Shown here: positions 9,187 to 15,365 of the stretch, piece after piece
How positions within the stretch are numbered: position 1 is the first letter of the stretch
Layout: every line of letters starts with the position of its first letter
Assembly: GCF_037078405.1 (NCBI RefSeq)
Contig: NZ_JAYMGZ010000004.1
Location: 124,001-188,000 of the forward strand
Reading direction: 5' to 3'
Length of the DNA stretch: 64,000 nt
From: Haloarcula sp. DT43
Lineage (GTDB): Archaea; Halobacteriota; Halobacteria; Halobacteriales; Haloarculaceae
Notes under the pieces: model-generated
Told to the model about the DNA's origin: nothing
Database searches by the model: none
Seen by the model: only the letters and a program-made list of their open reading frames with translations
Translations under genes and position numbers: made by a program

Positions 9187-9618
9187 ATGATAGAGGCCAC
9201 GAGCGCGGGAGCCATCCTCTTTCGCGATACGCGTGGCCGGCGGGAGTACCTCCTGCTCAAGAGCCGACCCGGCGATTGGGAGTTCCCCAAGGGCGGCGTC
9301 GAGGGCGAGGAAGAACTCCAGCAGACCGCCATACGCGAAGTGAAAGAGGAGGCCGGAATCGGCGATTTCCGGCTTTTAGACGGGTTCCGCGAAGACTACG
9401 ACTACGTGTTCGAGGCGAACGGCAACACCATCCACAAGACGGTCCACCTGTTCGTCGCGAAGTCGTTCGAAGCGTCAGCCGAACTGTCCACAGAACACCG
9501 CGACCTGCAGTGGCGCGACTACGAACAGGCCATCAACACCGTCACGCAGGACGGCCCCCGCGAGATACTCGAGCAGGCACACGAGTTCCTGGACGAGCGC
9601 GAGGACGAGGAAGAGTAA
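9187..9618 (+). CDS. NUDIX hydrolase (Ap4A-hydrolase-like)
   Basis: Predicted 143 residues. A complete Nudix box spans residues 36-58, with the REVKEEAGI core that binds the divalent metal and catalyses cleavage of nucleoside diphosphate-X bonds. The opening ATSAGAILFR and the WEFPKGG preceding the box match diadenosine-tetraphosphate hydrolases. The acidic tail is typical of haloarchaea. An AT-rich segment at 9150-9180 supplies the promoter, and the leader is very short. Confidence 0.9.
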   Translation: MIEATSAGAILFRDTRGRREYLLLKSRPGDWEFPKGGVEGEEELQQTAIREVKEEAGIGDFRLLDGFREDYDYVFEANGNTIHKTVHLFVAKSFEASAELSTEHRDLQWRDYEQAINTVTQDGPREILEQAHEFLDEREDEEE

Positions 9619-10247: not shown

Positions 10248-11276
10248 GTGGCCCCCGACTCAGAGTTCGCCTTCGAACTGTCCGTCTGCCAGTGGGCCGA
10301 GCGAGCGTGGTCGCCGCCCGACGACGCGGCGGTGCTCGTCGCCAGGCAGTTCGGGACGAAACACCGCCGCTGGGACACCATCGTCTTGGAGTGTGACCCC
10401 GACGGGCTCCGCCAGCGAGCGGCCTTCGGTGCGGACGCGTTCGACTCGGACCTCCTGCACGTCCTCCGGCACGCGCCGGCCGACTGGACCTACTACCGCG
10501 ACGCGCTGCCGGACCCGGGGTATCCGTGGCGGTACGTCCGGGAGTCTATTCACGAAGCGGCCGACCGGGGAGCCGTCGAGACGCGCAAGCGGGGCAACCG
10601 CATCCAGATTCGTCGGGTTCGCCCCTATCCGGACTGGCTTCGCCGCGTCGTCGCCATCGAGAACAAGCCCGACCTGACGGCCAGCGCGGCCAGGAACCTC
10701 GTCCCGCAACTGGAGCGGGACATCGCCCTGTCGCTGGCCGACGAGGTGTGGGTGGCGACGGCGGCGACCGACGAGCGCGTGGAGCCGATTCTGCTGGCGG
10801 ACCTGCCCGCGGCCGCCGGCGTGTTGACCGTCGACCCCGAGTCCGGGACGGCCGAGGCGGTCTGGCAACCGCGGTCGCTGTCGGTCGAGGACCCCGGGAC
10901 GCGCATCCTCGACCGACCGGCCGACGACACCAGCGCGGCGCGGTTCGAGTACGCGGACCCCGACTGGAAGCGCGAGCGGCGGCTCGCCATCGCTGAGCGG
11001 GCCTACGCCGACGGCTGGCGCGCGTACGCGGACACGATGCGCCCGGACTGCCGACACTTCCAGCTCAGGGCCGACGAAACCGGTGTTTACCCCTACTGTG
11101 CGGCGAAAGAGCGTCTGCCCACGGCGGCGGAGTGTCGGGGCCAGTGCCCGTCCTTCGAGCCGGAGCCGCCGGCGTGGCGGTCGGGGGGCTGGCCGCTCGA
11201 CGGCGGGCCGGGGCAGGCGATACGACGGTTGCTGGCGCGGCGGCGACGCCGCCGGCGGCCGGGGCTGTCAGAGTAG
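10248..11276 (+). CDS. DUF5787 protein, possible PD-(D/E)XK nuclease with four-Cys cluster
   Basis: Predicted 342 residues from GTG 10248 (VAPDSEFAFELSVCQWAE), a start that fits the family's usual EFAFEL opening; another GTG at 10152 would add 32 residues. Residues 135-157 (VAIENKPDLTASAARNLVPQ) have the look of a PD-(D/E)XK core: a strand with Glu138-x-Lys140, then a helix. Near the C-terminus Cys268, Cys284, Cys296 and Cys300 form a likely Fe-S or zinc site, and the protein ends in an Arg-rich tail. Cas4 and AddB-type nucleases combine the same two features. Nuclease activity is inference only. Confidence 0.7.
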   Translation: MAPDSEFAFELSVCQWAERAWSPPDDAAVLVARQFGTKHRRWDTIVLECDPDGLRQRAAFGADAFDSDLLHVLRHAPADWTYYRDALPDPGYPWRYVRESIHEAADRGAVETRKRGNRIQIRRVRPYPDWLRRVVAIENKPDLTASAARNLVPQLERDIALSLADEVWVATAATDERVEPILLADLPAAAGVLTVDPESGTAEAVWQPRSLSVEDPGTRILDRPADDTSAARFEYADPDWKRERRLAIAERAYADGWRAYADTMRPDCRHFQLRADETGVYPYCAAKERLPTAAECRGQCPSFEPEPPAWRSGGWPLDGGPGQAIRRLLARRRRRRRPGLSE

Positions 11277-11290
11277 CGACGCAGCCGCCC

Positions 11291-11770
11291 TCACTCCTCG
11301 GACAGTTCGATGTCCAGTTCGTCGCGCGGGACGGCCAGCCTGAACGTCGGCACGGTCTTCTCGACCGTCTCGACGATGCCCTTGTCGGCGAGGCTGCGGA
11401 GCGCGGACCGGACCTCGTCGGTATCGCGGTCCTCACCGACCTCGCGCAGCGCGTGCAACACCGACACGACGCTCTGGCTCTCCTCGTCTGGGCCGGCGAT
11501 GACGTCGACGATAGCCTGCTGGAGCAGGGTGACCGTCACCGTCTGAATCCGCTCGGAGTCCTCCCCGTCGATGAGCGTCGTCGCCTCCGGCGTCGCACAG
11601 ATGAGACTGTTGTCGTTGCGGTAGTAGTACTCCTTGAGTTCGGCTTCGAGGTACTGGTGGACTTCGCTCCCGCTGTCCATGTCCCAGCGCTCCTGTAACT
11701 CGCCGTTTTTCGTCGGCTGGAGTTCGACGATGTCGGCGAGCCGTTCGCGGGCCTCATCCGAGAGAGTCAT
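11291..11770 (-). CDS. DUF5797 family protein, winged-helix-like
   Basis: Predicted 159 residues from ATG 11770 (MTLSDEARERLADIV). The N-terminal helices and QPTKNGELQERWDMDSGSEV suggest a small DNA-binding-like module. The middle (LICATPEATTLI) and C-terminal parts (ALRSLADKGIVETVEKTVPT) resemble winged-helix segments. I recognise the sequence as a family found across haloarchaea, from memory. It is convergent with the DUF5787 gene, 14 bp apart. A regulatory role is plausible but unproven. Confidence 0.7.
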   Translation of the reverse strand: MTLSDEARERLADIVELQPTKNGELQERWDMDSGSEVHQYLEAELKEYYYRNDNSLICATPEATTLIDGEDSERIQTVTVTLLQQAIVDVIAGPDEESQSVVSVLHALREVGEDRDTDEVRSALRSLADKGIVETVEKTVPTFRLAVPRDELDIELSEE

Positions 11771-11816
11771 CGGACGGCGGTACGGCGACCACGTATTTCG
11801 GTGTTCTGAATCCGGC

Positions 11817-13051
11817 TCACTCGTGCCTGAGCGCGTCGATGGGGTCGACCCGCGCCGCCCGCCACGCCGGGTAGAGGCCGGCGACGACGCCGACGAGGAC
11901 GCCGACGCCGACTGCAAGTGCCATCCACAGCGGCGCGAGCGAGAACGTCACCTCGGCGTACCGGGTCGCGCCGTAGCCGACGACCAGTCCCAGTGGGACG
12001 CCGAGCAGCGACCCGACCGCGCCGAGCAGGGCGGCCTCGACGAGGAACACTTGCATCACGTCGCGGTTGCGCGCGCCGACGGCTTTCATGATGCCGATTT
12101 CGCGGGTCCGTTCGGTGACGCTGACGAGCATCACGTTGGCGATGCCGATAGCGCCCACGACCAGCGCGATGACGGCGATGCCGGTGACGAAGCGCGTGAT
12201 GCGCTCGATGACGTCGCTTATCTCCTCGACGAAGTCGTTGCCCGAACGAGCGACCAGTTCCGTGTCGTCGGCCGACAGCGACCGCGCGTCGGACTCGCCG
12301 GAGAGATACGTCTGAATCGCCGACTGCGTCTCCGGAATCGCTCGCGGGTCGACGACGAGCGTCACCTGCGGGTACGCGCGCTGCCGCACGCCCGCCGACG
12401 GGCTCTCGACGACCGAGTCGTAGAACGGGTCGATGGGGACGTACACCCGCGGCTGGCGGGCGAAGTCGCTGACCGGCACCTCGCCGCGGGTGCCGTTGAC
12501 GACGCCGACGACGGTGACGTTCCGGGCACTGCCGTCGGGCAGCGTCATCGTGAGCCGCTCGCCGGCCGTGAGGTTCTCGGCGAACGACCCGGCCATGCGC
12601 TCGTTGACGACGACCGCCGACTCGTCGGCCTCGAAGGAGCGGCCCTCGACGAGGACGCCGTCGTCGATGCTGGCCGGTCGCACCGCCGTGACCTGCTGTC
12701 TGGCCAGCGTTCGGTTCCCGTGTCGTATCGACTGGGTCCGGACGATGCCACGCGGGAGCACTGCCTGGACTCCCGCAATCCCCGCTAACTGCTGAATATC
12801 GTGCTCGGTAAACACCGGCTGGAGCGTCCGGTCGAAGTCGTCGTCGCCGGCGGGCGTCCCGAACACGTAGATGTTGCCCGCGTTCGAGGTCTCGATGTCG
12901 CCGACGATTTCGGCCTCGACGCTGGCCCCGAACGTGGCGAAGGTGATGACCGACGCGATGCCGATGACGACGCCGACGACCGTCAGCGCCGCCCGGAGCT
13001 TGTGGGCACTGATAGACCGGAGCGTGATGCGCACGCTCTCGCCGGCGTCCA

Positions 13052-14900: not shown

Positions 14901-15365
14901 TTACAGGTCCGCGAGCGTCGCCCGGACCGACGCCCAGTGGCTCCCCTTCCAGAAGTGTTGTCCGCAGTCGGTGCAGCGCCAGACCGTCTCGTCGCCCGCA
15001 CTCGGCGCGTACTCCGGCGTCGGTTCCGCCGGCGCGACTTCTTCGACCGGCCCGTTGCAGACGCCACAGTGGTGCGGCTCGTCTGCGAGCGAGAGTTGGA
15101 CACCGGCATCGGCGAGTTCCCGCAACTGGCCCTGTATCTCCCGCTCGTGGACGAGCAGACTGTCGGGTGCGCGGGCGGCGAGGTCGCGGTCCCTGGTAAT
15201 CAGCAGCCGGTCCTCTCCGTCGGCCAGCGCGAGGAGGTCGTCGTCGGCCTCGGCGTCCCGGTCCAACGCGTAGGCCGTGTCGTAGCCACACATCCGCAGG
15301 TAGGTGGCGAGCTTGCCGAGCATCGCGTCGAGCGCGAGGTGGTTGCGCGGGGTCTCCTCAGACAT
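14901..15365 (-). CDS. Mut7-C RNase domain protein (PIN-like plus zinc ribbon)
   Basis: Predicted 154 residues. The N-terminal PIN-like domain has ALDAMLGKLATYLRMCGYDT with Asp13, then acidic residues 38-43 and LLITRDRDLAARA, which should form the metal-binding nuclease site. The C-terminal zinc ribbon uses Cys100, Cys103, Cys131 and Cys134. This matches Mut7-C proteins, predicted ribonucleases of archaea and bacteria. It overlaps the 3' end of the PolX gene by 8 bp and is probably translated with it. Confidence 0.88.
   Translation of the reverse strand: MSEETPRNHLALDAMLGKLATYLRMCGYDTAYALDRDAEADDDLLALADGEDRLLITRDRDLAARAPDSLLVHEREIQGQLRELADAGVQLSLADEPHHCGVCNGPVEEVAPAEPTPEYAPSAGDETVWRCTDCGQHFWKGSHWASVRATLADL

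Follow-up and report, generated by a model that had tools for sequence, protein, structure and literature searches.

Cas4, AddB and Dna2 are nucleases that join a PD-(D/E)XK core to cysteines at both ends of the protein. Cas4 and AddB, as described in PMC3466216 and PMC7430649, have a group of three cysteines at the C-terminal end and one more near the N-terminus, and the latter source calls such an arrangement, in AddB and a DNA2-like enzyme, an "iron staple". For Sso0001, PMC3466216 reports that substituting any single one of its four cysteines yielded insoluble protein; it also notes that a related nuclease can have zinc in place of the cluster. A second point of comparison is PaqCI, a PD-(D/E)XK enzyme with catalytic residues Asp54, Glu73 and Lys75 according to the main text of PMC10201449. 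NucS/EndoMS is an archaeal repair enzyme of the same type. Two further likenesses are seen in fold: the solved structure 3dnx (SPO1766), which we take to be a member of the MmcB-like family (PF06319), and the XisH-type proteins such as 2okf; both presumably belong to the PD-(D/E)XK superfamily.

The window analysed here, a stretch of 64,000 nucleotides from Haloarcula sp. DT43, contains a gene of the DUF5787 family, on which the open-access literature searched returned nothing. From a Glu138-x-Lys140 strand, the helix that follows it and four C-terminal cysteines, the initial annotation proposed an Fe-S nuclease of the Cas4, AddB and Dna2 kind that acts in repair or defence. The present analysis keeps the nuclease fold and parts with the iron-staple analogy. 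We read DUF5787-A as a probable metal-dependent PD-(D/E)XK phosphodiesterase, which most likely serves as a DNA nuclease in the upkeep of haloarchaeal chromosomes.

Distribution of the two DUF5787 subfamilies

The gene itself is as follows:

10248 to 11276, forward strand: DUF5787 gene of subfamily A, 342 amino acids, an open reading frame with a GTG start and a PF19100 match

The PF19100 (DUF5787) profile of Pfam scores 394.4 bits against the encoded protein, with a cut-off of 25 and an E-value of 4.6e-118. The dN/dS ratio relative to four Haloarcula relatives (L033, L034, L038, L039) is 0.09-0.15, so this is a real gene. In a survey of the phylum, 81 of 392 genomes have a match at E <= 0.001, and 80 of these are Halobacteriales, an order in which G134 alone is listed as lacking one. 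The 81st, outside the order (G227), is false: the matching frame, of 665 residues, encodes a methionyl-tRNA synthetase. A larger draw with a 90% completeness filter finds the family at the same threshold in 389 of 391 Halobacteriales genomes, and in 374 of 376 when contamination is held to <=5%. Only G134 and G395 among the 391 lack a match at E <= 0.001; our guess is that both may have diverged early within it. A weak match in G134 (E 0.057) lies in a frame without other support and was rejected. Phyla beyond Halobacteriota were sampled through 14 control genomes and through plasmid, phage and viral collections, and the only control with a match is Haloferax volcanii.

Most genomes carry two DUF5787 genes, one from each of two subfamilies, A (the gene in the window) and B. 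The existence of two paralogues was missing from the initial annotation. In DT43 the B copy lies on a different contig from A (C1:117337-118116), and each of the 53 genomes in which both genes could be placed has one member of either subfamily. Identity to the DT43 A protein is 32-37% for the 25 B proteins in a 74-sequence alignment. Counted by eye, three of the 389 genomes have one match, 19 have three and the rest have two. Eight of the 19 were checked, and in no case did a third gene exceed the cut-off: six have one gene in two pieces, G630 has a frameshift, and the extra match in G563 is a 19.5-bit stray.

Distances among A proteins and among B proteins are correlated over the 53 genomes (Pearson 0.83, Spearman 0.58), with 0 of 2000 permutations as high. 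Such tracking is expected under vertical inheritance, and a comparison that covers A and B alone is not proof that the two co-evolve.

Cas4 is over the cut-off in 50 of 117 order genomes drawn with no completeness filter, and any Cas4 match at all is found in 55 of 97 good-quality genomes. NucS occurs in 30 of 39 order genomes, as against 389 of 391 for DUF5787. Of the three, DUF5787 has the widest occurrence in these samples. A Cas4 phylogenomics paper (PMC5704561) uses neither "haloarchaea" nor "Halobacteria" in its main text. As a separate observation, many haloarchaeal genomes contain other open reading frames, of about 170-400 residues, with weak Cas4-profile matches at positions ~99-158; these are possibly another Cas4-like nuclease family.

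The presence of PaqCI and Card1/Can2 among the fold matches described below might suggest a haloarchaeal defence nuclease, restriction-like or CRISPR-like. We give that reading very little chance, as a patchy distribution and a match to a known defence model would be its marks, and the family has neither. PADLOC models match neither A nor B at E <= 10; the gene is nearly universal, with just two genes in each of the eight three-match genomes checked; A and B distances track each other; and the same neighbours recur in the majority of 80 loci, which come from many genera. Mobile elements tell the same story. One of 72,556 plasmid records matches A, an 828-kb Natronorubrum bangense replicon with the same neighbourhood, and a B query retrieves this same A gene and nothing else. 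Searches with A found no match among phage records and none that was confirmed among viral contigs. Near-universal presence, the usual A and B pair and the lack of a phage or confirmed viral copy thus point to housekeeping rather than defence. The defence half of the original proposal is unlikely on these grounds, while repair is a role that we infer.

Predicted fold and active site

AlphaFold2 models of both proteins are confident, with a pLDDT of 89.7 and a pTM of 0.88 for A (from the 74-sequence alignment) and a pLDDT of 90.2 and a pTM of 0.86 for B (from 40 sequences). The model of A runs through a helix (residues 6-20), two strands (28-36 and 41-49), an insert, a third strand (131-139), a helix (145-161) and a fourth strand (166-172), and the core of B has the same order. 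This alpha-beta-beta-beta-alpha-beta succession is that of the PD-(D/E)XK core, to which the predictions would assign both proteins. Asp43 sits near the start of the second strand in the A model, and Glu138-x-Lys140 ends the third, in agreement with the strand followed by a helix that had been read from the sequence. The predicted core elements map to the window thus:

10263 to 10307, forward strand: predicted helix alpha1, residues 6-20, bearing Glu10 (invariant) and Cys14 (nearly so) (model and alignment)
10329 to 10394, forward strand: predicted strands beta1 and beta2, within residues 28-49, with Asp43 at 10374-10376 (model and alignment)
10638 to 10667, forward strand: predicted strand beta3, with Glu138 at 10659-10661 and Lys140 at 10665-10667 (model and alignment)
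10680 to 10763, forward strand: predicted helix alpha2 (145-161; invariant Gln154 and Asp158) and strand beta4 (166-172) (model and alignment)

Comparison of the models with solved structures points the same way. VIA-align takes the 1000 best chains from Foldseek, realigns them and sets a caution line at Z 8; it places 3dnx first for both proteins. The A model matches 3dnx at Z 11.4 (142 residues aligned, 4.1 A), the endonuclease domain of PaqCI (8em1) at Z 10.1 (150 aligned, 3.2 A) and two XisH-type proteins, 2okf, an fdxN excision controlling factor, at Z 9.1 (112 aligned, 2.6 A) and 2inb at Z 8.9. For B the values are Z 11.6 for 3dnx and Z 8.7 for both 2okf and PaqCI, and matches below the caution line include NucS/EndoMS (2vld, Z 7.3), Card1 (Z 7.0) and VC1899. 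Against a library of viral models, A finds its best Foldseek match, at E 3.7e-4 and prob 1.00, in an entry called "MmcB family DNA repair protein". Foldseek against the PDB returned nothing at E <= 0.001 for either protein; the lowest E-values were those of 2ph7 (4.6e-3 for A and 9.3e-3 for B), with PaqCI at 1.4e-2 for A. The case for the fold, a matter of predicted models throughout, rests on the VIA-align realignment of the Foldseek list together with the viral library.

Sequence profiles do not reach this far. The PD-(D/E)XK families in Pfam show no profile relation to DUF5787, even for four proteins from which the winged helix described below had been removed. PF06319 in particular gives no match at E <= 10 to the DT43 A protein or to those four cores, with the proviso that HMMER filters drop most matches above about 0.1, and PF06319 likewise has no match at E <= 10 in the DT43 genome. 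Sequence searches of the PDB gave only weak matches (E >= 0.068), to unrelated proteins, and the best match in PHROGs has an E-value of 0.38. The resemblance to MmcB-like proteins is one of fold and of name, and it has a limit of size as well, since 3dnx has only 146 residues, too few for the inserted winged helix or the four-cysteine tail of DUF5787.

Conservation supplies the evidence for an active site. A set of 163 distinct A and 76 distinct B proteins was aligned from 307 loci, leaving out two weak matches, each of which corresponds to the downstream part of the frameshifted gene in G630. Glu10, Asp43, Glu138, Asn139, Gln154 and Asp158 are identical in all 239 proteins. Lys140 is present in 163 of 163 A and 75 of 76 B proteins. 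The initial annotation had placed Glu138-Asn139-Lys140 and cysteines 268, 284, 296 and 300 correctly (the remaining cysteines are 14 and 49), and had named loss of their conservation as grounds for abandoning its reading. All six of these positions, the Glu, the Lys and the four cysteines, are nearly invariant, and in the smaller alignment of 74 sequences (49 A and 25 B) they fall within the 61 columns, out of 342, where conservation reaches 90% or more (hypergeometric 2.6e-5). The upstream acid that it had said should complete the site can be recognized as Asp43. An Asp at the start of beta2 and a conserved (D/E)xK on beta3 are the hallmarks of the PD-(D/E)XK class, and the models, the fold search and the conservation together support a PD-(D/E)XK nuclease fold with a complete active site. 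PaqCI shares with DUF5787 both the fold and the D...ExK arrangement. It differs in being a restriction enzyme whose own recognition domains are separate, and the word "winged" is absent from the main text of PMC10201449.

A DNA-binding regulator or structural protein, built on a PD-(D/E)XK scaffold but not a working enzyme, would account for the winged-helix proteins that occupy most rows of the fold lists, and for the one B protein (L152, genome G114) in which Asn replaces the catalytic Lys140. Such a protein is very improbable, given that Asp43 and Glu138 in 239 of 239 sequences and Lys140 in 238 of 239, across subfamilies as divergent as A and B, are hard to explain without catalysis.

The predicted winged-helix insert and the cysteine tail

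Two elements are added to the predicted core, one within it and one behind it:

10434 to 10625, forward strand: predicted winged helix-turn-helix, residues 63-126, between core strands beta2 and beta3 (VIA-align matches)
11049 to 11147, forward strand: C-terminal four-cysteine knuckle, Cys268-x15-Cys284-x11-Cys296-x3-Cys300 (alignment; weak DUF7140 match at 268-289)

Residues 63-126 of the A model match MarR (3bpv) at Z 8.5 (63 aligned, 2.2 A), 2mh2 at Z 8.1 and Zur (3mwm) at Z 8.0 in VIA-align. The initial annotation does not mention this winged helix inside the core, and we know of no precedent for one inside a nuclease core.

The cysteines bear on whether DUF5787 is an iron-staple nuclease, that is, a RecB-type domain in which one N-terminal and three C-terminal cysteines hold a 4Fe-4S cluster. 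Several features lend themselves to such a view. As in Cas4, AddB and Dna2, a PD-(D/E)XK core is predicted, the helix that follows ExK has a conserved Gln (invariant in DUF5787), and most members have cysteines at both ends, Cys14 lying in the first helix in 160 of 163 A proteins (Ser in the other three) and in 71 of 76 B proteins (Ser in three, Ala in two). The Cas4 protein SSO0001 (4ic1) also appears in the Foldseek list of B, but with an E-value of 0.30 and a prob of 0.08.

Closer comparison breaks the likeness down. All eight proteins in which Ser or Ala has taken the place of Cys14 (three A and five B) keep the four C-terminal cysteines, and four of the eight (L235, L236, L237 and L149) have no other cysteine, while the remaining four have further ones. 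Such dispensability contrasts with Sso0001, whose solubility depends on each of its four cysteines (PMC3466216). The spacing differs as well. The Cas4 of DT43 itself has an N-terminal Cys and a C-x2-C-x5-C motif, whereas the four C-terminal cysteines of DUF5787 are separated by x14-28, x11 and x3 in A (162 of 163) and by x12-35, x11-12 and x3 in B (the 75 of 76 proteins whose spacing was listed). No Pfam Cas4 or PDDEXK_1 match is found at E <= 10, and neither Cas4 nor AddB is among the best 50 VIA-align matches of either model, a list that by the tool's own account excludes nothing. Profile comparison by hhalign with haloarchaeal Cas4 and NucS gave no signal and is uninformative, because the NucS-Cas4 positive control was silent too. 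An obligatory N-terminal cysteine, a set of three at the C-terminus and the C-x2-C-x5-C spacing are all missing, and so the iron-staple reading, whether as kinship or as analogy, is not supported; an iron-staple nuclease is improbable here.

What the alignments suggest instead is a self-contained C-terminal four-cysteine knuckle, a putative metal site. Each of the four positions is Cys in 76 of 76 B proteins, and Cys268, Cys284, Cys296 and Cys300 are present in 163, 162, 163 and 162 of the 163 A proteins, the departures belonging to a frameshifted sequence (L226) with Arg at two of the four positions. In the genome from which it comes, G630, the A gene (L226 and L247; C1:1035770-1036608) is divided between two reading frames near the cysteine tail, by mutation or by sequencing error. 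The tail may hold a structural metal, and we lean slightly towards zinc over an Fe-S cluster.

A similar knuckle is found in the DUF7140 family (PF23601). The DT43 A protein matches this profile at residues 268-289 with an E-value of 0.0076 and 16.6 bits, below the 27-bit cut-off, and weak matches occur in 17 of 74 DUF5787 members (best E 0.0013). The C-R-H-F...P-Y-C...C series in the DT43 DUF7140 protein resembles the Cys268-Cys296 part of DUF5787; the difference is that DUF7140 has a CxxC at its start, in place of which DUF5787 has an extra C-x3-C at the end. The DT43 DUF7140 protein (L309, C2:682744-682869) shows apparent membrane-like stretches followed by a terminal DUF7140 cysteine knuckle that resembles the DUF5787 tail.

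Proposed activity and gene neighbourhoods

These features are most probably explained by two paired haloarchaeal PD-(D/E)XK nucleases with housekeeping roles, each with an inserted winged helix and a four-cysteine metal site, for which catalysis, substrate, metal and pathway can be sketched as follows. The predicted core, with its conserved Glu10, Asp43, Glu138, Lys140 and Gln154, would carry the reaction, flanked by the inserted winged helix and the C-terminal cysteines. Asp43 and Glu138 would hold Mg2+ or Mn2+, and Lys140 would help to activate a water molecule for cutting of the phosphodiester. The winged helix may keep duplex DNA against the active site. A and B would act as two sister enzymes, perhaps as halves of a heterodimer, and they would repair or process the DNA of the cell itself rather than serve in antiviral defence.

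A bolder proposal extends this sketch: A and B may form an obligate heterodimeric, winged-helix-guided PD-(D/E)XK nuclease, a haloarchaea-only substitute for a repair or replication nuclease of other archaea, with both halves going back to a single duplication close to the base of the haloarchaea and kept in almost every lineage since. We regard it as speculative and somewhat unlikely in this full form. For the sister-enzyme reading, the consequences are practical. A family that was so far without a function, and is near-universal in sampled haloarchaea, now has a predicted site that can be mutated (Asp43, Glu138 and Lys140), a predicted DNA-reading domain and a putative metal site. Haloferax volcanii carries DUF5787 and is genetically tractable, so that function is directly testable.

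Neighbouring genes give another view of the locus. Their frequencies are for 80 A loci, several of which are interrupted by contig ends:

8763 to 9092, reverse strand: uS10-family ribosomal-protein gene (PF00338, E 6.4e-14), in 61 of 80 A loci
9187 to 9618, forward strand: Nudix hydrolase, conserved upstream neighbour (PF00293), in 63 of 80 A loci
11291 to 11818, reverse strand: DUF5797, conserved convergent neighbour (PF19110, E 1.4e-73), in 73 of 80 A loci
14901 to 15365, reverse strand: Mut7-C RNase-domain protein (PF01927, E 6.9e-38), in 24 of 80 A loci

By Pfam identities, B is divergent from an aIF2-gamma gene in 22 of 31 loci, behind which lie a PIN gene (22) and an Rpb7-type RNA polymerase subunit gene (19), and a metallo-beta-lactamase-fold gene is convergent with B in 23 of 31.

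Some proteins with a PD-(D/E)XK fold have RNA as their target, and the company of the uS10-family gene near A and of the aIF2-gamma, PIN and Rpb7-type genes beside B would be explained by an RNA-processing or translation-linked nuclease whose winged helix and four-cysteine knuckle bind structured RNA. The uS10, DUF5797, aIF2-gamma, PIN and Rpb7-type genes are all opposite in strand to their DUF5787 gene, however, and therefore lie outside its operon; moreover, DNA enzymes are found among the top fold matches, along with a protein whose name refers to DNA repair. A role in RNA metabolism is thus unlikely, and action on DNA stays the preferred reading, although the neighbours (uS10-family, Nudix, aIF2-gamma, PIN and Rpb7-like) give no pointer to DNA repair either.

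The Nudix gene differs from the uS10 and DUF5797 genes in its orientation, for it shares the strand of A in 63 of 63 loci. In Natronorubrum the annotation names the Nudix gene a bis(5'-nucleosyl)-tetraphosphatase and the uS10-family gene a member of the uS10/mL48 family. The Nudix gene of N. bangense ends about 125 bases upstream of A, with which it could form an operon there. In the window, about 600 bases that contain an opposite-strand frame separate the Nudix gene from A.
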